Source: Massilia sp. 9096 (GTDB lineage Bacteria; Pseudomonadota; Gammaproteobacteria; Burkholderiales; Burkholderiaceae_D). Taken from it: a stretch of 64,000 nucleotides of DNA. The position numbers and the translations under genes are program-made. Below the pieces are notes generated by a model. It saw only the letters and a program-made list of their open reading frames with translations, did not search any database and was not told where the DNA came from. Location of the stretch: NCBI RefSeq assembly GCF_000745265.1, contig NZ_JQNN01000001.1, forward strand, positions 5,394,001-5,458,000, read 5' to 3'. This document shows positions 3,784 through 56,358 of this stretch, in pieces (the stretch's first letter is position 1; each line of letters starts with the position of its first letter).

Positions 3784-4699
3784 GGTGCCGACGCCTGCGC
3801 CTGGATCGACAAGGTCTACGACCAGACCTACAGCCCGGCGACCTTCGAGGCCTCGATCGCCGCCGCGCAGGCCGAAGCATATCCGGTCGTGGTGGCGCTG
3901 ACCGTGGTCGACTGCCATCGCTATGCGCGCCTGGCGCGTGCGATCAGCCCGGACGGTTTCGTGGTCGGCCTGACCAAGCCGGCCGAGCGCTGGCGGCACG
4001 CGCTGTCGCGCCATGTTGCCTACCGCAAGCTGGACGCCTCGCCGCCGGTCTACACCCCGGTCACGCGCGGCGAGCGCCACATCAGCGACATCTATGCTGG
4101 CTGGTTCGAGCGCTGCTTCGGCCTGGCGGTGGCGCCCGCACGGCGTCTTCCTGCGCTCGACATTCCCGAGACCTGGCTGCGGTGGGCGCTGGGGCAACTG
4201 ACGCATTGGGGCTTTGCCGGCACGCTCCCGGTGGTGTTCCTGAACGCATGGTCGAAGTCGCCGGACCGCACCTGGCCGCTCGAGCGCGTGCTGGCGCAAC
4301 GCCGGATTTGTCATCAACACCGTGCCGGAAGCACGCGCCGACACCGAGCGCCTGCTGGCGCGCTGCGAGGACCCGGCGCTGGCGCGCGTGCGCCTGTTCA
4401 GCGCCGACGACCACTTCTATCAGCTGCCGGCGATAATGGCGCTGTGCAGCCTGGTGATTTCGGTCGAGACGGCGGTGATGCACCTGGCGAACGCGATGCA
4501 GGTGCCGGTGATCGCGCTGATGCGCCGCAACCATCCGGAATGGGCGCCGATCGACCGCGACAACAGCACCGTGATCATGGCCGAGCACGAGGAGGATTGG
4601 GTCACGGCGATCGGCGTGGACGAGGTGCTGGAAGTGCTGGATCGCGACGCGCGCTTCGAGTCCGGGTTCAGCCACTTCCCGGCAGACGCGTCAGCCTGA
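3784..4699 (+). pseudogene. Decayed glycosyltransferase family 9 (heptosyltransferase-like) gene
   Basis: Two adjoining reading frames encode one GT9-like protein. The first frame carries the N-terminal Rossmann half (including VVALTVVDCHRYARLA and FVVGLTKPAERW) and runs through VVFLNAWSKSPDRTWPLERVLA. Near 4285-4305 homology jumps to another frame, continuing GFVINTVPEARADTERL and ending with a donor-site motif, SVETAVMHLANAMQVPVIAL. The usual GT9 start (a beta strand with an IRxxxxGD motif) is absent, so about 50 residues are also missing at the 5' end, replaced by the DUF2076 gene end. No start codon with an SD is visible. An assembly indel could explain the frameshift but not the missing start. 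Confidence 0.7.
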
Positions 4700-5655: not shown

Positions 5656-6468
5656 CTACATCTGCTGGAACAGAGAGGTGTGGTTGCGGCTGATCTCGAG
5701 TTCGCCTGCGTAATTGCGCAGCCTGAGCATGTGGCGTCCGCGCAGGTCGCGCGTGACTTCCGCGATCGCGTCCACGCGCACCAGCGTCGAGCGGTGGATG
5801 CGCCAGAACTCGTCCGGGTCGAGCTCGTCCAGCAATTCCTTGAGCGTCTTGCGGATCAGGTATTCGGCGCCCGCGGTCTGCACCCGCGTGTACTTTTCGT
5901 CGGACTGGAAGAACAGCACCTCGCGCGTGCTGATCATGCGCAGGCTGCTGCCGACCTGGGCCTGGATCCAGCGCAGGTAGCCGGTTTTTGCCGGCGCCTT
6001 ATTCTCGATCAGCTCGGTCAGGCGCGCCAGCTGGGCGCCGATGTCCCGGGATGACGAGGGCTGGCCGATCTCGGATACGGGCGCGGACGCCCCTGTCCGG
6101 GCGCGGATGCGCGCACAGGTGGCCGCCAGGCGCTCCGCGCTCACCGGTTTGAGCAGGTAGTCGAGCGCGCCCTGCTCGAAGGCGTCCAGCGCGTACTGGT
6201 CGTAAGCGGTGGCGAACACGATGTGCGACTGGCGGTACAGCTGGCGCGCCGCCTCGATCCCGCTCAGGCCCGGCATGCGGATGTCCAAAAAGGCGATGTC
6301 GGGACGGTGCTGCTTCCCGAACTCGACCGCCTCGACGCCGTTGGCGGCTTCGGCGACGATGCGCAGCTCGGGCCAGACCGTCTGCAAACGCGCGCGCAGC
6401 AGGTCGCGCATCGGCGCCTCGTCGTCGGCGATCAGCGCGGTGACCACGCGCTCTTCGGCCATGCTCAT
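5656..6468 (-). CDS. LytTR-family response regulator
   Basis: The product (270 residues) has a CheY-like receiver with the phospho-acceptor D62 in DIAFLDIRMPG, the acidic pair D15/D16 and a conserved Lys in DYLLKPV. A linker follows, then a C-terminal LytTR DNA-binding domain (about residues 165-265, with EVLFFQSDEKYTRV and FWRIHRSTLVRVDAI). The start at 6468 overlaps the stop of the sensor kinase gene as ATGA, indicating translational coupling; a second Met two codons later is also possible. It is the last gene of a three-gene minus-strand operon. Targets cannot be read from the sequence. Confidence 0.95.
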   Translation of the reverse strand: MSMAEERVVTALIADDEAPMRDLLRARLQTVWPELRIVAEAANGVEAVEFGKQHRPDIAFLDIRMPGLSGIEAARQLYRQSHIVFATAYDQYALDAFEQGALDYLLKPVSAERLAATCARIRARTGASAPVSEIGQPSSSRDIGAQLARLTELIENKAPAKTGYLRWIQAQVGSSLRMISTREVLFFQSDEKYTRVQTAGAEYLIRKTLKELLDELDPDEFWRIHRSTLVRVDAIAEVTRDLRGRHMLRLRNYAGELEISRNHTSLFQQM

Positions 6469-45965: not shown

Positions 45966-46598
45966 ATGAAATCGCCCCCTGTCCCGCGCACCCTGCGCAT
46001 CGTCGTCGTCAACATCGCGCCCGGTGGCGCGGACGAACAGACCATGCAGGCCCAGGCCCGGCGCAACACGGCGTTGCGCATCGGCCTGCTCGAATCGGGC
46101 TACGACATCGTCGCCTCGCTGCCGGCCGACATCTTCCTGCCCGAGCGGATCGCCCAGATCCAGCCGGACATGATCATCATCGACAGCGAATCCGATGCGC
46201 GCGACGTGCTCGAACACATCGTGATCGCCACCCGCGACGAGCCGCGTCCGATCGTGCTGTTCACCGACGACCAGACCCCGGCCAGCATGGACGCCGCGAT
46301 CGCCGCCGGGGTCTCGGCCTACATCGTGGCCGGGCTGCAGGCCGAGCGCGTGAAACCGGTGCTGGACGTCGCGCTGGCCCGCTTCAAGCGCGAGCAGAAG
46401 CTGCTGGACGAATTGACCGACACGCGGCGCCAGCTGGCCGAGCGCAAGCTGATCGAACGCGCCAAAGGCGTGCTGATGGCGCGCAACCGCATGACCGAGG
46501 ACGAGGCCTACCAGAAGCTGCGCAGCATGGCGATGAACAAGAAACTCAAGCTGGCCGAGGTTGCGCAGCGCATCCTCGACGTCGAGGACCTGCTGTGA
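45966..46598 (+). CDS. nasT: ANTAR-domain response regulator NasT (transcription antiterminator)
   Basis: A 210-residue regulator. Residues about 10-135 form a pseudo-receiver domain (IVVVNIAPGGADEQ, MIIIDSESDARDVLEHI) with a possible Asp acceptor. Residues about 150-210 form the ANTAR RNA-binding domain, three helices with LIERAKGVLMARNRMTEDEAY and AQRILDVEDLL. NasT proteins bind leader RNA with paired hexaloop hairpins and prevent termination before nitrate-assimilation genes; NasS holds NasT inactive without nitrate. The target leader is visible at 47947-48080. Gene order nasT-nasS is the reverse of the common one. Confidence 0.95.
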   Translation: MKSPPVPRTLRIVVVNIAPGGADEQTMQAQARRNTALRIGLLESGYDIVASLPADIFLPERIAQIQPDMIIIDSESDARDVLEHIVIATRDEPRPIVLFTDDQTPASMDAAIAAGVSAYIVAGLQAERVKPVLDVALARFKREQKLLDELTDTRRQLAERKLIERAKGVLMARNRMTEDEAYQKLRSMAMNKKLKLAEVAQRILDVEDLL

Positions 46599-46626
46599 TG
46601 CGCTCCTCTTTCATGAAGGTATCGAT

Positions 46627-47802
46627 ATGACAGGCGCATGGGTGGCGGGTTCCGACCGGCCGGAGAAAAAGGTGATCAAGGTCGGCTTCATGCCGCTGAC
46701 CGACTGCGCCTCCTTGGTGATGGCGTCCGTGCTCGGGCTCGACGAAAAATACGGCATCAAGCTGGAGCTCAGCCGCCAGCACTCGTGGTCGGGCATGCGC
46801 GACCGCGTGATCAACGGCGAGCTGGACGCCGCACACGCCCTGTACGGCCTGCTCTACGGCGTCGAGATGGGCATCGGCTGCGCCGCGACACCGATGGCTG
46901 TGCTGATGGGCCTGTCGCGCAACGGCCAGGCGATCACGCTCTCGCGCGCGCTCGCGCAGGCGGGCGTGACCGACCTCGATGCGCTGTCTTCGGCCATGCG
47001 CGGCAGCGGACGCCGCTTCACCTTCGCCCACACCTTCCCGACCGGGAACCACGCGATGCTCCTGTATTACTGGCTGGCCGCGGGCGGCATCGACCCGGTG
47101 CGCGACGCCCAGATCGTCACGGTGCCGCCCAGCCAGATGGCGGCCAACCTGGCGGCCGGTCACATGGATGGCTTTTGCGTCGGCGAACCGTGGAACGGGC
47201 GCGCGGTACTCGACGGCAGCGGCGTCACGGTCGCGACCAGCCAGGACGTCTGGCCCGATCACCCTGGCAAGGCGCTCGGCGCGCGCGCCGATTTCGCCGA
47301 TGCCAATCCGCACGCCTGCCGCGCGCTGATCGCGGCCGTGCTGGAAGCCGGGCGCTGGATCGACGCCTCCGGCGAACACCGCGAGGCTGCCGCCGAGGTG
47401 CTGTCCAGCCCCGCCTACGTCAACGCCGACCGCGCCATCATCGCCCCGCGCCTGCATGGCCGGTACGACAACGGCATGGGACTGCGCTGGGTCGACCCGC
47501 ATCCGCTGCGCTTCCACCAGGACGGCGACGCCAACTTCCCCTATGTCTCGGACGGCATGTGGTTCATGACCCAGCACCGGCGCTGGGGCCTGCTGCGCGA
47601 AGACGTCGACTACCAGGCGGTCGCCGGCCGCGTCAACCGCGTCGGCCTGTACCGCGAAGCGGCGCTGCTGGCCGGCGTGAGCGCGCCTTACGGATTGACG
47701 CGTTCCTCGATCCTCATCGACGGCAAGACCTGGGACGGTAAAGACGCGGACGCTTATATCTCGTCGTTTGCGATCCGCAACCGCGCACTGATCAAAATCT
47801 AG
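46627..47802 (+). CDS. nasS: NasS nitrate sensor (CmpA/NrtA-like periplasmic-type fold, cytosolic)
   Basis: A 391-residue protein of the nitrate/bicarbonate-binding CmpA/NrtA family, beginning KKVIKVGFMPLTDCASLVMA and containing FTFAHTFPTGNHAMLLYYWLAAGG and FCVGEPWNGRAV. It has no signal peptide or lipobox, unlike transporter-linked NrtA, which fits a cytosolic sensor. NasS binds nitrate and releases NasT. The start at 46627 has AAGG at about 8 nt; it follows nasT by 28 bp. No NrtB/NrtC genes are present, supporting NasS over a transporter role. Confidence 0.92.
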   Translation: MTGAWVAGSDRPEKKVIKVGFMPLTDCASLVMASVLGLDEKYGIKLELSRQHSWSGMRDRVINGELDAAHALYGLLYGVEMGIGCAATPMAVLMGLSRNGQAITLSRALAQAGVTDLDALSSAMRGSGRRFTFAHTFPTGNHAMLLYYWLAAGGIDPVRDAQIVTVPPSQMAANLAAGHMDGFCVGEPWNGRAVLDGSGVTVATSQDVWPDHPGKALGARADFADANPHACRALIAAVLEAGRWIDASGEHREAAAEVLSSPAYVNADRAIIAPRLHGRYDNGMGLRWVDPHPLRFHQDGDANFPYVSDGMWFMTQHRRWGLLREDVDYQAVAGRVNRVGLYREAALLAGVSAPYGLTRSSILIDGKTWDGKDADAYISSFAIRNRALIKI

Positions 47803-47916
47803 GCGCTGCACCGAAGTGCATGCGCTTGCACATGAACGCCCGCTTTTCGGGCATGGTGCACTGCAATGACGCATGCCTCATCCTTGTGCAGCGCCGCGTG
47901 AGAGGGAAGGGACCTC

Positions 47917-47932
47917 TGGCACGGCTCTTGCA
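47917..47932 (+). promoter_or_regulatory. Sigma-54 promoter of the nitrate assimilation operon
   Basis: TGGCACGGCTCTTGCA is a perfect match to TGGCACG-N4-TTGCW. Transcription should start near 47943, four bases before the first ANTAR-type hairpin. This gives nitrogen-limitation control on top of the nitrate-responsive antitermination. NtrC is the expected activator. Several TGCAC or GTGCA half-sites lie upstream at 47807-47890. Confidence 0.85.
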
Positions 47933-47946
47933 ATTAACCGGGTAGT

Positions 47947-48019
47947 GGATCAACGGCGATCCCTGAACGAATCACATGACCGGTCCAACGGCGGACCGAC
48001 AACCGGACAACGGCGTCCG
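47947..48019 (+). promoter_or_regulatory. NasT target leader: three hairpins with identical AACGGC hexaloops
   Basis: Hairpin 1: GGATC-AACGGC-GATCC (47947-47962). Hairpin 2: CGGTCC-AACGGC-GGACCG (47981-47998). Hairpin 3: CGGAC-AACGGC-GTCCG (48004-48019). All loops have A at position 1 and G at position 4, the published requirement for ANTAR protein recognition, where two such hairpins are the usual motif. Spacers are 18 nt and 5 nt. The loop and 3' arm of hairpin 3 are also the 5' arm of the terminator that follows, so the two structures exclude each other. Confidence 0.88.
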
Positions 48020-48080
48020 CTGCAACCTTATCCATGCTCACGCATTCGTAAGGCCAGGCAGCGGGCGCCGTTTTGTTTTT
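48009..48080 (+). terminator. Leader intrinsic terminator controlled by NasT
   Basis: Bases 48009-48023 pair with 48058-48072 in a 15-bp stem with one G-U pair, followed by a T-rich run TTTTGTTTTT at 48071-48080. The large loop contains a nested stem (CCTTA/TAAGG and ATGC/GCAT). It lies 30 bp before narK. Formation of the third ANTAR hairpin would remove the first 11 bases of the 5' arm, allowing read-through. Confidence 0.88.
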
Positions 48081-48110
48081 GATATCGCAGATGCACAACA
48101 GGGGCTGATA

Positions 48111-49409
48111 ATGATGTCGGGCAAAGCTAACAGCATCAAACTCTTTTCGTTCAACACACCGCAGATGCGTGCCTTCCACCTGAGCTGGGTGGCCTTCTTC
48201 GTCTGCTTCTTCGCCTGGTTCGCATGCGCGCCGCTGATGCCGGTCATCAAGGGCGAATTCCACCTGTCGGCCGGCCAGATCGCCGACATCAACATCGCCG
48301 CCGTTGCCATCACCATCATCGTGCGCATGCTGGTCGGCCCGCTGTGCGACCGCTTCGGCCCGCGCAAGACCTACACCGGCCTGCTGGTGCTGGGCGCCAT
48401 CCCCGTGCTGGGCCTGGCCGCCGCTCAGAGCTACGAAAGCTTCCTGCTGTTCCGCCTCGGGATCGGTGCGATCGGCGCCAGCTTCGTCATCACCCAGTAC
48501 CACACCTCGGTGATGTTCGCGCCGAAAGTGGTCGGCACCGCCAACGCCGCCTCGGCCGGCTGGGGCAACAGCGGCGGCGGCGTCGCACAAGCGCTGATGC
48601 CGCTGCTGATGGGCGCCGTCATCATGATGGGCGTGAACCAGGCCATGGGCTGGCGCGTCGCGCTGCTGGTGCCGGGCGTGATGATGCTGCTGACCGCCGT
48701 CGCCTACTGGAAGCTGACCCAGGATTGCCCGGAAGGTAACTTCGCCGAACTGCGCGCCGCCGGCGTGGCATTCGAGTCGAATAACAAGGGCGGCTGGGCC
48801 AGCTTCGTCGACGCCTGCCGCAACTACCGCGCCTGGCTGCTGTTCGTCACCTACGGCGCCTGCTTCGGCATCGAACTGTTCATCCACAACACCGCCGCCA
48901 CCTATTACGTCGACCGCTTCCACCTGTCGCTGGCGCAAGCCGGCATGGCCGCCGGTTCGTTCGGCCTGCTGGCCCTGTTTGCCCGCGCACTGGGCGGTTT
49001 CATCTCCGACAAGATGGCCGCGCGCGGCGACTTGAACAGCCGCGTGACCCTGCTGACCGTCCTGATGGTGGGCGAGGGCCTGGGCCTGCTGTGGTTCGCC
49101 AACGCCGGCAGCGTCAACGTCGCGATCCTGGCCATGCTGTCGTTCGGCCTGTGCACCCACATGGCTTGCGGCGCCACCTACGCGCTGGTCCCGTTCGTGA
49201 ACAAGAAGGCGTTGGGCGGCGTCGCCGGCATCGTCGGCGCGGGCGGCAATGCGGGCGCGGTGCTGGCCGGCTTCGTCATGAAGGGTACCGGCAACGTCAA
49301 CCAGACCCTGATGATCCTGGGCGGCGCGGTGCTGGTGTCGGCGATCTGCGCGATCGGCGTGCGTTTCTCGAGCAGCACGGTCGAGACGCCGGCGCCGGCG
49401 GCAGCCTGA
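48111..49409 (+). CDS. narK: MFS nitrate/nitrite transporter (NarK/NasA type)
   Basis: A 432-residue inner-membrane transporter with 12 hydrophobic segments. The two nitrate signature motifs are present: GWGNSGGGVAQALMPL in helix 5 and GIVGAGGNAGAVLAGF in helix 11. The Arg expected for nitrate binding is visible in AITIIVRMLVGPLCDRFGPR. As first gene of the assimilation operon it imports nitrate for NasA. ATG codons at 48111 and 48114 are both possible; the first fits the SD (AGGGG) better. nirB follows after 45 bp. Confidence 0.94.
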   Translation: MMSGKANSIKLFSFNTPQMRAFHLSWVAFFVCFFAWFACAPLMPVIKGEFHLSAGQIADINIAAVAITIIVRMLVGPLCDRFGPRKTYTGLLVLGAIPVLGLAAAQSYESFLLFRLGIGAIGASFVITQYHTSVMFAPKVVGTANAASAGWGNSGGGVAQALMPLLMGAVIMMGVNQAMGWRVALLVPGVMMLLTAVAYWKLTQDCPEGNFAELRAAGVAFESNNKGGWASFVDACRNYRAWLLFVTYGACFGIELFIHNTAATYYVDRFHLSLAQAGMAAGSFGLLALFARALGGFISDKMAARGDLNSRVTLLTVLMVGEGLGLLWFANAGSVNVAILAMLSFGLCTHMACGATYALVPFVNKKALGGVAGIVGAGGNAGAVLAGFVMKGTGNVNQTLMILGGAVLVSAICAIGVRFSSSTVETPAPAAA

Positions 49410-49454: not shown

Positions 49455-52016
49455 ATGAAACTCATCGTCATCGGCCACGGCATGGTCGGCCACAAATTCC
49501 TCGAGACGCTTTTCGCTGATCCGCAGGCGGCGGCCGGCTTCGACGTCACCGTGCTGTGCGAGGAACCGCGTCCGGCCTACGACCGCGTGCACCTGTCCGC
49601 CTACTTTTCGGGCACCACCGCCGAGCAGCTGTCGCTGGTCGCGCCGGGCTTTTTCGAGCGGCACGCCGGCCGCGATGGCAAGCAACTGAGCTTCCGCCTG
49701 AACGCGAAAGCCGTATCGGTCGACCGCGCCGCCAAGACCGTGACCCTGGCCAGCGGCGAAATCCTCGGCTACGACAAGCTGGTGTTCGCCACCGGCTCGA
49801 CCCCGTTCGTGCCGCCGGTCCCGGGGCGCGAGCGCGAAGGCTGCTTCGTCTACCGCACCATCGAGGACCTGGAAGCGATGCTGGCCGCGGGCGCGCAGTC
49901 GCGTTCGGGCGTGGTGGTCGGCGGCGGCCTGCTCGGCCTGGAATGCGCCAAGGCCCTGCGCGACATGAAGCTCGACACCCACGTGGTCGAATTCGCGCCG
50001 CGCCTGATGGCGGTGCAGGTCGACGAGCTGGGCGGGCGCGTGCTGCGCACCAAGATCGAAGAGCTGGGCGTGCACGTGCACACGCAAAAGAACACGCTGC
50101 GCATCGTCGACGGCGAATCGGCCAAGCACCGCATGGAGTTCGCCGACGGCACCTCGCTGGAAGCCGACATGATCGTATTCTCGGCCGGCATCCGCCCGCG
50201 CGACGAACTGGCGCGCGCCTGCGACCTGGCCATCGGGGCGCGCGGCGGCATCGCCATCGACGACGCCTGCGTGACGTCGGATGCGGACGTGTACGCGATC
50301 GGCGAATGCGCGGCCTGGAACGGCCAGACCTTCGGCTTGGTGGCGCCGGGGTACGACATGGCGCGCACGGTCGCCAAGGCGCTGCTCGGCCAGGAAGGCA
50401 CTTTTGGCGGGGCCGACATGAGCACCAAACTGAAACTGATGGGCGTCGACGTCGCCTCGATCGGCGATGCGCACGGCGCCGCACCGGGTTCGCGCAGCTT
50501 CCAGTACCTTGATGAGCGCAAGCAGGTCTATAAAAAGATCGTCGTCTCCGACTGCGGCAAGAAGCTGCTGGGCGCGGTGCTGGTCGGCGACGCCGCCGAA
50601 TACGGCACGCTGCAGCAGATGATGCTCAACGCGATGACGCTGCCGGCCTCGCCCGAGTTCCTGATCCTGCCGGATTCAAGCGGCGCGGCGCGTCCTTCGA
50701 TCGGCGTCGATGCGCTGCCGGCCAGCGCCCAGGTCTGCTCATGCAACGCGGTCAGCAAAGGGACGATTCAAGCGGCGGTGGCAGAAGGCGCCTGCGACAT
50801 CGGCGCGCTCAAGTCCTGCACCAACGCCGGCACCTCGTGCGGCGGCTGCGTCCCGCTGGTCACGCAGATCATGAAGGCCGAGATGCAGAAAGCCGGCCTG
50901 GCGGTCAGCAACCACCTGTGCGAGCACTTCCCCTACTCGCGCCAGGAACTGCACCACCTGATCCGCGTCGGCGGGATCAAGAGCTTCAACGACCTGCTGG
51001 ACAAGCACGGCAAGGGCCTGGGCTGCGACATCTGCAAGCCGGTCGCCGCCAACATTCTGGCTTCGACCTGGAACGACTTCGTACTGAAACCCCAACACGC
51101 CAGCCTGCAGGATTCGAACGACTACTTCCTCGGCAATATCCAGAAGGACGGGACCTACTCGGTCGTGCCGCGCATGCCGGGCGGCGAAGTCACGCCGGAC
51201 GGCCTGATCGCGGTCGGCCAGGTGGCCAAGAAGTACGGCCTGTACACCAAGATCACCGGCGGCGCGCGCGTGGACATGTTCGGCGCCCGCGTCGACCAGT
51301 TGCCGCTGATCTGGGAAGAGCTGATCGCGGCCGGCTTCGAATCCGGCCACGCCTACGGCAAGTCGCTGCGCACCGTGAAGTCGTGCGTCGGCTCGACCTG
51401 GTGCCGCTTCGGCGTCGGCGATTCGATCGGCTTCGGCATCGCGCTGGAGAACCGCTACAAGGGCTTGCGCGCGCCGCACAAGATCAAGTTCGGCGTCTCC
51501 GGCTGCACGCGCGAGTGCGCCGAAGCGCAGGGCAAGGACGTCGGCCTGATCGCCACCGACAAGGGTTGGAACCTGTACGTGTGCGGCAACGGCGGCATGA
51601 AGCCGCGCCACGCCGAACTGCTGGCCTCGAACCTGGACGAAGAGACGGTCGTGAAACTGGTCGACCGCTTCCTGATGTTTTACGTGCGCACCGCCGACCG
51701 CCTGCAGCGCACCAGCACCTGGCGCGAGAATCTGGAAGGCGGCCTGGAGTACCTGAAGCAGGTCGTGGTCGACGACAAGCTGGGCATCGGCACCGAGCTG
51801 GAAGCCGACATGCAGCGCGTGGTCGATACCTACGAGGACGAGTGGAAGAACGCCGTCGAAGACCCGGCCGTGCGCCAGCGTTTCCGCACTTTTGTGAACA
51901 GCGACAAGCAGGACGCCAACGTCGTCTTCATGCCCGAGCGCGGCCAGATCCGTCCGGCCACGCAGGAAGAACGCGATCAGCGCCGCGTGATCCCGATTGC
52001 CGTCGGTTCCATCTAA
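49455..52016 (+). CDS. nirB: NADH-dependent assimilatory nitrite reductase, large subunit
   Basis: An 853-residue cytosolic enzyme that reduces nitrite to ammonium with six electrons. Domain order: FAD/NADH reductase (residues 1-290, IVIGHGMVGHKFLETL; GGGLLGLECAKALRDM), C-terminal reductase dimer region, a BFD-type [2Fe-2S] segment (about 425-475, with CSCNAVSKG and CGGC), then the ferredoxin-like and sirohaem domains. Cluster/sirohaem Cys are seen as CVGSTWC and GCTREC. The SD AAGGAG lies before the ATG. Complex partner nirD follows after 16 bp. Confidence 0.97.
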   Translation: MKLIVIGHGMVGHKFLETLFADPQAAAGFDVTVLCEEPRPAYDRVHLSAYFSGTTAEQLSLVAPGFFERHAGRDGKQLSFRLNAKAVSVDRAAKTVTLASGEILGYDKLVFATGSTPFVPPVPGREREGCFVYRTIEDLEAMLAAGAQSRSGVVVGGGLLGLECAKALRDMKLDTHVVEFAPRLMAVQVDELGGRVLRTKIEELGVHVHTQKNTLRIVDGESAKHRMEFADGTSLEADMIVFSAGIRPRDELARACDLAIGARGGIAIDDACVTSDADVYAIGECAAWNGQTFGLVAPGYDMARTVAKALLGQEGTFGGADMSTKLKLMGVDVASIGDAHGAAPGSRSFQYLDERKQVYKKIVVSDCGKKLLGAVLVGDAAEYGTLQQMMLNAMTLPASPEFLILPDSSGAARPSIGVDALPASAQVCSCNAVSKGTIQAAVAEGACDIGALKSCTNAGTSCGGCVPLVTQIMKAEMQKAGLAVSNHLCEHFPYSRQELHHLIRVGGIKSFNDLLDKHGKGLGCDICKPVAANILASTWNDFVLKPQHASLQDSNDYFLGNIQKDGTYSVVPRMPGGEVTPDGLIAVGQVAKKYGLYTKITGGARVDMFGARVDQLPLIWEELIAAGFESGHAYGKSLRTVKSCVGSTWCRFGVGDSIGFGIALENRYKGLRAPHKIKFGVSGCTRECAEAQGKDVGLIATDKGWNLYVCGNGGMKPRHAELLASNLDEETVVKLVDRFLMFYVRTADRLQRTSTWRENLEGGLEYLKQVVVDDKLGIGTELEADMQRVVDTYEDEWKNAVEDPAVRQRFRTFVNSDKQDANVVFMPERGQIRPATQEERDQRRVIPIAVGSI

Positions 52017-53628: not shown

Positions 53629-56358
53629 ATGAAGTTGTATCCGCAGTTGCCGATCCGCGCCGCGACCGTGCGCACCACCTGTCCGTATTGCGGCGTCGGC
53701 TGCGGCGTCTCGGCCGGCATCGATGCCGACGGCGAGCTGGCCATCGCCGGCGACGCCGCGCACCCCGCCAGCCAGGGCCGCCTGTGCGTGAAGGGCTCGG
53801 CGCTGGGCGAGACCGTCGGCCTGCAGGGCCGTCTGCTTGCGCCGATGCTGCGCGACGGACGCGCGCTGCGCGAAGCCGGCTGGGACGAGGCGCTGGCCAA
53901 GGTCGCCGACGGTTTTTCCCGCATCGTCGCCGAGCACGGCCCGGACGCGGTCGCGCTGTACGTCTCCGGCCAGCTGCTGACCGAGGACTACTACGTCGCC
54001 AACAAGTTCATGAAGGGCTACGTCGGCAGCGCCAACATCGACACCAACTCGCGCCTGTGCATGTCCTCGGCCGTGGCCGGCCACAAGCGCGCCTTCGGCG
54101 AAGACCTGGTGCCGGGCGCGTACGAGGATTTCGAGCTGGCCGACCTGGTCGTGCTGGTCGGCTCCAACGCCGCCTGGTGCCACCCGACGCTGTACCAGCG
54201 CCTCGCGCGCGCGAAGGAACAGCGCCCGCAGATGCAGGTCGTGGTGATCGACCCGCGCCGCACCGCCACCTGCGACATCGCCGACCTGCACTTGGCCGTC
54301 AAGCCGGGCAGCGACGTCTGGCTGTTCGACGGCCTGCTCGGCTACCTGGCCGCGCGTGCGCCCGACCAGGCTTTCGTCACCGCGCACACCAGCGGCCTGG
54401 CCGATGCGCTGGCCGCGGCCGGCGAGGCCGGCAGCCTCCTGGACGTCGCCAAGGCCTGCAAGCTCGACCCGCGGCAGCTGCTGCGCTTTTACGAGCTGTT
54501 CGCAAAAACCGAAAAGGTCGTCACCGCCTTCACGATGGGCGTGAACCAGTCGACCAGCGGCGCCGACAAGGTCAACGCCATCATCAACTGCCACCTGGTG
54601 ACCGGCCGCATCGGCAAGCCGGGCATGGGGCCGTTTTCCCTGACCGGCCAGCCGAACGCGATGGGCGGGCGTGAAGTCGGCGGCCTGGCCAACATGCTGG
54701 CGGCGCACATGGAGCTCGACCATGCCGGCCAGCGCGCCGCGCTGCAGGACTTCTGGCAGGCGCCGCGCATGGCCGCCCAGGCCGGCCTGAAGGCCGTCGA
54801 CCTGTTCCGCGCGATCGAAGAGGGGAAAGTCAAAGCCGTGTGGATCATGGCGACCAACCCGATCGTCAGCCTGCCGGACGCCGACCAGGCGCGGCGCGCC
54901 TTGGAAAAGTGCGAACTGGTGGTGGCGTCCGACATCGTGCTCGGCACCGACACCAATGCGTTTGCCGACGTGCTGCTGCCGGCGCTGGGCTGGGGCGAGA
55001 AGGATGGCACGGTGACGAACTCCGAGCGCTGCATCTCGCGCCAGCGCGCTTTTCTCTCCGCCCCGGGCCAGGCGCGCGCCGACTGGGACATCGTCTGCGA
55101 CGTCGCGCGCCGCATGGGCTTTTCGGGCTTCGACTTCACGGCGCCGCACGAGATTTTTGACGAGCATGCGCGGCTGTCGAGCTGGCGGAATGGTGTGGCG
55201 GGCCAGCCGCGCCGCATGTTCGACATCGGTGGCTTGACCGGGCTGACGCGTGGGGACTACGACGCGTTGGAACCGGTGCAGTGGCCGGTGCGCGCGCGCG
55301 GCGAGTCGACCGAGCGCCTGTTCGCCGATGGCCGCTTCGCGCACGCGGACGCGCGCGCGCGTTTCGTGCCCACGCGCGTGCGCGCGCCCGCGCACCTGCC
55401 CGACGGAGATTATCCCCTGGTACTCAACACCGGCCGCGTGCGCGACCAGTGGCACACCATGACCCGCACCGGCCGCTCACCCAAGCTGGCAGAGCACATG
55501 CTCGAACCGACCGTCGACCTGCACCCGCAGGATGCGCTGCTGTGCGGCGTGAAGGAAGGCGAGCTGGCGCGCGTGAGCAGCCAGTGGGGCGCCGTGGTGG
55601 CGCGGGTCCAGCACGGCGGCGGCATCGCGCGCGGCAGCGTGTTCATGCCGATCCACTGGAGCGCCCAGACGGCGTCCGATGCGCGCGTCGGCGCGGTGGT
55701 CAACCCGGCCGTCGATCCGGTCTCGGGCGAGCCGGAATTCAAGCACACGCCGGTGCGCGTCGAGCCGTTCGGCGTGAACTGGTACGGCTTCATCCTCAGC
55801 CGCGGCGCACTTCCGCTGGACGGCGCCGCGCACTGGACGCGCATCCAGGGCCGCGACTTCATCCGCTACGAGCTGGCCGGGCGCACCAAGGTGTTCGAGG
55901 CCGCCGGCTGGGGACGTGGCCTGCTGGGCGTGGGTCTGGACGACGACGAGGCCGACTGGATCGAACTCGAAGACAAGAGCGGCGGCGTGTACCGCGCGGT
56001 GCATCTGGTCGACGGCCGCATCGAAGCCTGCCTGTTCGTCTCGCAGCGCCAGGACCTGCCGGCGCGCGCCTACCTGGCCGGCCTGTTCGCCAAGGAGGAG
56101 CTGACCCCGAGCGAGCGCCTCGGCCTGCTGTCGGGCCGCGCGCGCGAGGCGGGGGAAGACCCGGGGCCGACCGTGTGCTCGTGCTTCGGGGTCGGCCGCA
56201 AGACCATCGAGATCGCGATCCGCAAGAACGGCTGCACGGACGCGGCGCAGGTCACGGCGTGTACGAAGGCGGGTGGCAATTGCGGATCGTGCGTGCCGGA
56301 GATCCGGGCGATTCTGGCGCAAACGCAGGCGGAGGCGCGGGCGGAGGCCGCGGGCTGA
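53629..56358 (+). CDS. nasA: Assimilatory nitrate reductase catalytic subunit
   Basis: A 909-residue cytosolic molybdenum enzyme reducing nitrate to nitrite. The N-terminal [4Fe-4S] ligands are C18, C21, C25 and C53 (CPYCGVGC; GRLCVKG). The Mo-bis-MGD domains follow (MSSAVAGHKRAFGED with the usual Ser/Cys region, MGVNQSTSG, NAMGGREVGG) with the molybdopterin-binding C-terminal domain after about residue 580. A C-terminal BFD-type [2Fe-2S] motif (VCSCFGVG; CGSC) ends the protein, a NasA feature that accepts electrons. No signal peptide. It is the last gene of the nas operon. Confidence 0.96.
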   Translation: MKLYPQLPIRAATVRTTCPYCGVGCGVSAGIDADGELAIAGDAAHPASQGRLCVKGSALGETVGLQGRLLAPMLRDGRALREAGWDEALAKVADGFSRIVAEHGPDAVALYVSGQLLTEDYYVANKFMKGYVGSANIDTNSRLCMSSAVAGHKRAFGEDLVPGAYEDFELADLVVLVGSNAAWCHPTLYQRLARAKEQRPQMQVVVIDPRRTATCDIADLHLAVKPGSDVWLFDGLLGYLAARAPDQAFVTAHTSGLADALAAAGEAGSLLDVAKACKLDPRQLLRFYELFAKTEKVVTAFTMGVNQSTSGADKVNAIINCHLVTGRIGKPGMGPFSLTGQPNAMGGREVGGLANMLAAHMELDHAGQRAALQDFWQAPRMAAQAGLKAVDLFRAIEEGKVKAVWIMATNPIVSLPDADQARRALEKCELVVASDIVLGTDTNAFADVLLPALGWGEKDGTVTNSERCISRQRAFLSAPGQARADWDIVCDVARRMGFSGFDFTAPHEIFDEHARLSSWRNGVAGQPRRMFDIGGLTGLTRGDYDALEPVQWPVRARGESTERLFADGRFAHADARARFVPTRVRAPAHLPDGDYPLVLNTGRVRDQWHTMTRTGRSPKLAEHMLEPTVDLHPQDALLCGVKEGELARVSSQWGAVVARVQHGGGIARGSVFMPIHWSAQTASDARVGAVVNPAVDPVSGEPEFKHTPVRVEPFGVNWYGFILSRGALPLDGAAHWTRIQGRDFIRYELAGRTKVFEAAGWGRGLLGVGLDDDEADWIELEDKSGGVYRAVHLVDGRIEACLFVSQRQDLPARAYLAGLFAKEELTPSERLGLLSGRAREAGEDPGPTVCSCFGVGRKTIEIAIRKNGCTDAAQVTACTKAGGNCGSCVPEIRAILAQTQAEARAEAAG

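Follow-up and report, generated by a model that had tools for sequence, protein, structure and literature searches.

A nitrate assimilation leader of Massilia sp. 9096 with three ANTAR-type hexaloop hairpins and a mutually exclusive terminator

The leader of the nitrate assimilation operon in Massilia sp. 9096 contains three hairpins with A1/G4 hexaloops, the last of which overlaps an intrinsic terminator. In the reading that we prefer and regard as reasonably probable, it is a NasST-controlled transcription attenuator in which the first and second hairpins (HP1 and HP2) are recruitment sites and form two overlapping dual motifs that share the third hairpin (HP3). Judged from the sequence, it is very likely that NasT acts as an antiterminator at this leader. 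The leader seems to be a genuine variant of a known switch, since its layout recurs in many related bacteria.

Within the window, the 64,000-nucleotide stretch of DNA that was analysed, the leader is located on the plus strand between nasTS and an operon encoding a transporter, NirB and a nitrate reductase. It is preceded by a consensus-like promoter, TGGCACG-N4-TTGCA (47917-47932), which we take to be of the sigma-54 type and which has equivalents upstream of 124 surveyed leaders. From this promoter transcription is predicted to start at about 47943, four nucleotides ahead of HP1, as the earlier note had proposed. HP1 (47947-47962, GGATC-AACGGC-GATCC, 5-bp stem) is the additional, 5′-most hairpin. 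HP2 (47981-47998, CGGTCC-AACGGC-GGACCG, 6-bp stem) corresponds by linker length to P1 of the dual motif and HP3 (48004-48019, CGGAC-AACGGC-GTCCG, 5-bp stem) to P2, the antiterminator hairpin. All three are supported by sequence, folding and conservation, and the earlier description of three AACGGC hairpins, including the positions of HP2 and HP3, is correct base for base. A C-G pair closes all three loops. The linker between HP2 and HP3 is 5 nt long and lies inside the published range for paired hairpins of about 5-12 nt; the HP1-HP2 linker (18 nt) is outside this range. The intrinsic terminator (48009-48080) has its arms at 48009-48023 and 48058-48072, with 15 pairs of which one is U-G, followed by the U-tract TTTTGTTTTT at 48071-48080. 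HP3 and the 5′ arm have the 11 bases 48009-48019 in common, just as had been claimed. Targets of ANTAR proteins consist of two short tandem hairpins with A1/G4 loops of 6 nt, the final one overlapping the 5′ arm of a terminator, and the genome encodes a cognate ANTAR protein. Here all three hairpins have such loops, the final one overlaps the terminator and nasT is adjacent; there are three hexaloops instead of two, and we therefore term the leader a variant of the ANTAR-target antiterminator RNA.

The genes around the leader, all on the plus strand, fit this assignment. The nasT gene (45966-46598) encodes an ANTAR-domain protein (Pfam ANTAR, 74.8 bits), presumably the antiterminator, and is followed by nasS (46627-47802, start codon placed by eye), coding for an NrtA/NMT1-like protein (Pfam NMT1_2, 306 bits at 46621-47799) that, given the role described in the literature, is presumably the nitrate sensor holding NasT. 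Both genes thus lie directly upstream of the leader, as the earlier note had stated, and beside nitrate assimilation genes, which is the arrangement expected of a NasS-NasT system. The first controlled gene (48111-49409) encodes a NarK-type nitrate/nitrite transporter (TIGR00886, 305 bits with a cut-off of 311.7; Pfam MFS_1). It is followed by nirB for the large subunit of nitrite reductase (49455-52016; TIGR02374, 1110 bits) and by a gene for a nasC-like molybdoprotein resembling assimilatory nitrate reductase (53629-56358; Pfam Molybdopterin domains; NasC model, 452 bits with a cut-off of 1100). The genome encodes a second ANTAR protein (G000:C1:5211153-5211311; L002 1084-1719), whose N-terminal part is receiver-like.

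The closest named NasT is that of Massilia sp. Root133 (89%), and the window protein is related in sequence to the EutV, Rv1626, NasR and AmiR structures. EutV is described as contacting RNA through R142, K143, K147, E160, Y164, M172, N173, R175 and R177 (PMC8934654). With the chain numbering shifted by two, as our mapping assumes, the aligned residues of the window NasT are, in the same order, R160, K161, R165, E178, Y182, M190, N191, K193 and K195, so that according to the alignment most of the reported contacts would have counterparts. Among the 16 NasT proteins of alignment A3, R160, K161, R165, E178 and M190 are invariant and Y182 and K195 nearly so; positions 191 and 193 are not.

Folding of the growing transcript predicts that HP3 and the terminator are mutually exclusive, as the earlier note had expected. 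Up to position 48060, HP1 has a predicted probability of at least 0.9, HP2 of 0.56-0.98 and HP3 of 0.48-0.82. From 48065 onward, with the 3′ arm of the terminator made, the probability of HP3 is 0, and between 48065 and 48090 HP1 (0.98-1.0) and HP2 (0.69-0.97) persist; HP1 drops to 0.35 at 48110. For the transcript up to 48080, the free fold has an energy of −62.4 kcal/mol, compared with −47.7 when HP3 alone is enforced and −45.3 when HP1 to HP3 are enforced. Because the free fold lies so far below the folds with HP3, read-through would require some factor that holds HP3.

The cluster is unique in its surroundings. AACGGC occurs 38 times on the plus and 45 times on the minus strand of the window; a stem of 4 bp or more flanks 7 of these 83 copies, and nowhere but in the HP1-HP3 leader do three of them cluster. 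A search for A..G.. hexaloop hairpins overlapping a terminator returned two anchors on the plus and one on the minus strand of the window, and among these three only the nas leader has A..G.. hexaloops upstream. In the whole genome, the covariance model R1 identified the leader with an E value of 1.1e-12. The next six matches (E 0.03 to 4.1) were set aside, none having more than one A..G.. hexaloop. A search of the window with Rfam 15 at gathering score gave no match.

Conservation was analysed in the family, where 199 of 294 genomes yielded a NasT; 60 stretches around NasT were taken from these. An HP3-like motif together with a T-run served to locate the leaders, and three more were added by hand. 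Altogether, 54 of the 61 sequences (60 stretches and the window) yielded 56 leaders, 32 located before a transporter gene and 24 upstream of a gene that is NasS-like and presumably of NrtA type; no leader was detected in seven stretches (L054, with a decayed operon, L055, L065, L076 and L079-L081). Alignment A1 comprises 31 transporter-type leaders, with the two-loop L071 left out, and alignment A2 comprises 19 of the other type, with L062, the first leader of L063, L072, L078 and L091 left out. HP1 and HP2 played no part in finding these leaders; HP3 did, so its loop conservation is not independent evidence.

In alignment A1, A1 and G4 of the loop are retained in 31/31 leaders in HP1, HP2 and HP3. 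Positions 2, 3, 5 and 6 of the HP2 loop vary, position 6 being C in 14, G in 8, A in 6 and T in 3 leaders. In alignment A2, HP2 and HP3 hold A1 and G4 in 19/19, and the HP1 loop, read by alignment column, has A1 in 18/19 and G4 in 17/19. The named stems pair in 96.5% of cells in alignment A1 and in 87.4% in alignment A2, and in both alignments none of 500 shuffles and no slid version reaches the covariation score. Compensatory changes are found at five of the eight aligned pairs of HP2; the HP3 stem offers little covariation because it is nearly invariant within alignment A1. The HP1 helix of alignment A2 pairs in just 74.7% of cells, and of the five measures of covariation two are unexceptional there (54 and 50 of 500 shuffles). 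The earlier note had named absence of the three loops from related genomes as one observation that would refute it. In the relatives analysed this is mostly not the case; some do lack HP1 or its loop.

The wider survey covered the window and 200 loci (60 family stretches, 80 named loci and 60 class stretches), all chosen via NasT except five class stretches (L253-L257) picked for a match to R1. After removal of nested anchors, in which HP2 also passed as anchor, 228 of 256 anchors remained, 124 of them with a sigma-54-like promoter. Two A1/G4 hexaloops between the start and HP3 were found in 74 of the 124 leaders, one in 41 and none in 9; the 74 is approximate, because the rules are imperfect, missing weak third hairpins and admitting false anchors. 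Such weak third hairpins are visible by eye in L049, L059, L061 and L067, scored with fewer than three loops by the strict rule, and in L088, L137, L139, L146 and L149, so scored by the parse; likely false anchors are the one at 5806 on the minus strand of the window and probably L205 at 12095 and L223. Rough dinucleotide-block shuffles lead to an expectation of 0.05 leaders with two upstream hexaloops, and an exact dinucleotide shuffle of the earlier set, which contained nested anchors, to 0.06 with 64/138 observed. A stricter stem rule applied to the 124 leaders gave 63 with two upstream hexaloops, 52 with one and 9 with none. Of the 222 hairpins in the 138 leaders including nested anchors, 135 have 6-nt loops when no loop is required, and 124 of these 135 carry A1 and G4. 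Anchors with at least one upstream hexaloop in the 80 named loci lie on the NasT strand in 52 cases and on the opposite strand in one. The third hairpin is neither due to chance nor a local oddity.

Three hexaloops were parsed in 56/74 promoter-bearing leaders of the family, where HP1 and HP2 both lie upstream of HP3, in 12/20 from other Burkholderiales, in 6/30 from the rest of the class (two of them, L254 and L256, from stretches picked with R1) and in 0/4 plasmid leaders. Nine further three-loop leaders outside Burkholderiales have no match to the promoter pattern used. Anchors were detected in three of eight plasmid loci (L259, L260 and L262); the leaders of L258, L263 and L264 were read by eye, L258, L259, L260 and L263 were added by hand as plasmid leaders, and no leader was seen by eye in the stretch of L265. 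A phylum search with R1 gave matches in at least 17 of 398 genomes at E 0.01; it is left out of the frequencies because it is biased towards three-loop leaders and may lose weak matches. The loop AAYGGC is present in exactly one of HP1 and HP2 in 55/74 three-loop leaders, a pattern that is only suggestive because the leaders are related. Scored against the NtrC consensus as we assume it to be, sites with at most two mismatches lie upstream of 40/124 leaders, and shuffles lead to an expectation of about 1.4. The window has a weak NtrC-like site with three mismatches (47857-47873, plus strand), a match not far from chance; NtrC may nevertheless control this leader.

Natural variants differ in which hairpins they contain. 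HP2 and HP3 occur without HP1 in L071, L072, L078, L253 and L255, and HP1 is therefore dispensable at least in the first three and others like them. A single hexaloop near an up-shifted start site is seen in L071, L072, L078 and the first leader of L151. On the reverse strand of L071 (about 4480-4530), HP1 and HP2 appear fused, as if the intervening stretch had been deleted, which makes it a natural two-loop leader. In the rhizobial L258, L259 and L263 and in L211, L213 and L218, a hairpin that lacks an A1/G4 hexaloop lies between a 5′ hexaloop and HP3. The three rhizobial loci belong to Phyllobacterium, Sinorhizobium and Ensifer; their last hexaloop sits on a stem of 3-5 bp and overlaps the terminator, and in the two of these records that are annotated the leader lies upstream of the second NrtA-like gene. 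In 8/74 family leaders the HP1 stem is kept and its A1/G4 hexaloop lost, although the hairpin of L062 may be unrelated. A kept stem without A1/G4 hexaloop is seen in several Herbaspirillum-like and Comamonadaceae-like leaders (L068, L084-L086, L130, L136, L167, L180, L183 and L184); in L068, L084-L086, L130 and L136 the stem GCGC(A) is retained and the loop reads 5 or 7 nt instead of 6. Acidovorax-like leaders (L163, L166, L176 and L178) have three loops and a fourth, plain hairpin inserted between HP2 and HP3, which results in a loop-to-loop distance of 47-57 nt. The decayed nas operon of L054 (about 2600-2900, on a contig shared with L125, Massilia psychrophila) has HP1 and HP2 followed by sequence resembling the interior of a transporter gene; HP3, the terminator and the beginning of the gene are gone, no nasS was found and the nasC matches are fragmented. 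L063 and L066 each have two hexaloop leaders within one nas cluster, which suggests that NasT may control two transcription units there. Taken as sequences, the variants suggest a modular layout, with HP3 as antiterminator and HP1 and HP2 as alternative or cooperating recruitment sites for NasT.

The accepted model has the ANTAR protein stabilising P2 at the expense of the terminator, with P1 needed as well. The element is described as two hairpins in PMC3369931, PMC7496416, PMC8164766, PMC3369936 and PMC8934654; PMC3369931 and PMC7496416 favour a grip on both hexaloops, PMC8934654 a successive model, with recruitment at P1 and transfer to P2. The dual-hexaloop systems EutV/eut, NasR/nasF and AmiR/amiE (PMC3369931, PMC7496416, PMC3369936, PMC8934654) are, as described, like the window leader in their short stems, 6-nt A1/G4 loops, C-G closing pairs, ANTAR protein and a last hairpin exclusive with the terminator. 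The window leader differs from them in having three hexaloops, the extra one 5′ and beyond the published linker range. In Paracoccus denitrificans nitrate is reported to release the NasS-NasT complex (PMC3795266). Its nasA system is similar in that nasTS lies beside the operon, NasT binds the leader and leader hairpin HI is needed for growth on nitrate (PMC3795266, PMC5424462), and different in that the published leader has hairpins HI and HII, which were mutated, and not three hexaloops. In the region after nasTS, a plasmid record of P. denitrificans shows one clear and one weak hairpin with an A..G.. hexaloop and no sigma-54 match. The sequestering RNA EutX is reported to have an additional single G4 hexaloop beside a dual hexaloop motif, and three hexaloops in one RNA therefore have a precedent; in contrast to the window leader it is described as a trans-acting decoy under riboswitch control and not as a sigma-54 leader, and the passages concerned do not mention that its three loops are conserved (PMC8934654). 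The PPE1-5′ RNA of Mycobacterium tuberculosis, bound by the ANTAR protein PdtaR, is reported to have three hairpins as well, but is trans-acting, and its description mentions, in the passages concerned, no A1/G4 hexaloops (PMC8131098). In the open-access literature searched, we found no nas leader described with three conserved hexaloops, EutX being a partial precedent, and since that literature describes two hairpins we take the conserved third hexaloop in nas leaders to be new.

In the preferred reading, sigma-54, presumably with NtrC, would initiate transcription near 47943 under nitrogen limitation. HP1 would fold almost immediately, HP2 next and then HP3. Without nitrate, NasT would be held by NasS, the 3′ arm of the terminator would displace HP3 and transcription would stop ahead of the transporter gene. 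With nitrate, NasT would be freed and caught by HP1 and/or HP2, from which it would pass to HP3 while this hairpin is exposed; bound there, it would hold the hairpin and block the 15-bp terminator. HP1 and HP2 could each pair with HP3, giving two overlapping dual motifs with one antiterminator. Of the three ideas in the earlier note (tuned cooperativity, two overlapping hairpin pairs, and a relay with HP3 as the antiterminator itself), the overlapping pairs gain most, because there are leaders with only HP2 and HP3 as well as leaders in which a plain hairpin separates a 5′ hexaloop from HP3. The note did not mention the HP1-HP2 linker beyond the published range, the wide occurrence of the layout or the degeneration of HP1 in some lineages. 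That HP3 is itself the antiterminator agrees with the published role of P2 and is hence not novel. The broader assignment to NasT-type antitermination appears well founded, given three real hexaloops and an HP3 exclusive with the terminator.

A simpler explanation, which we consider unlikely, is an ordinary dual ANTAR leader in which HP2 and HP3 do the work and HP1 is a 5′-end hairpin stabilising the transcript, its loop inherited but unused. Both linker lengths suit this explanation, as do the leaders that lack HP1 or its hexaloop. In 53/74 three-loop leaders HP1 begins no more than 3-5 nt from the predicted start, a placement that would suit end protection. A purely stabilising hairpin would, however, not need an A1/G4 loop, and this loop is kept throughout alignment A1 although it lies outside the terminator stem. 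The reverse assignment, with HP1 and HP3 as the working pair and HP2 chiefly as a spacer hairpin bringing both together, would account for the six leaders with a non-A1/G4 hairpin between hexaloop and HP3 (L258, L259, L263, L211, L213 and L218), but leaders with HP2 and HP3 and no HP1 exist and HP2 keeps A1 and G4 in every leader of both alignments; we regard it as very improbable. Hardly more probable is that the three sites act by avidity, raising the local NasT concentration or binding several dimers cooperatively for a sharper nitrate response without ordered hand-over. The near-identical loops of the window leader and the reported binding of single hexaloops, with a 2:1 stoichiometry on the dual motif, are compatible with avidity; the discussion in the same source argues for successive binding (PMC8934654). 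A more far-reaching proposal, possible though doubtful, is that the leader represents a widespread proteobacterial three-hairpin nas module in which two serial recruitment hexaloops supply the one antiterminator HP3. NasT would be captured at the 5′ end at the very onset of transcription and handed on from HP1 via HP2 to HP3 as RNA polymerase advances, many of the "dual" motifs being reduced forms of this relay.

We prefer the reading with two recruitment sites because the HP1 and HP2 loops are retained although they were not used to find the leaders, because two upstream hexaloops are far more frequent than in shuffled leaders and because the stems pair and covary beyond the shuffles. It is also favoured by the terminator 3′ arm removing HP3 and leaving HP1 and HP2 in the predicted folds, by the C-G closing pair, which is preferred in NasR SELEX, by the window NasT retaining the residues aligned with most EutV contacts and by the existence of both kinds of reduced leader. 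Counting against it, the HP1-HP2 linker is long when a 14-nt linker already lowered induction of eutP, HP1 or its hexaloop is lost in some leaders, HP1 pairing is weaker in alignment A2 with its two unremarkable measures, and three loops are less common outside Burkholderiales.

Three-loop leaders, leaders lacking HP1 and leaders in which a plain hairpin replaces HP2 all occur naturally and provide ready-made constructs to distinguish a joint grip from step-wise transfer. The third hairpin suggests that searches for a motif of exactly two hairpins overlook part of the element. The leader serves the nitrate-uptake operon of a soil bacterium and has three hairpins for a single regulatory protein, one more than is usually described.
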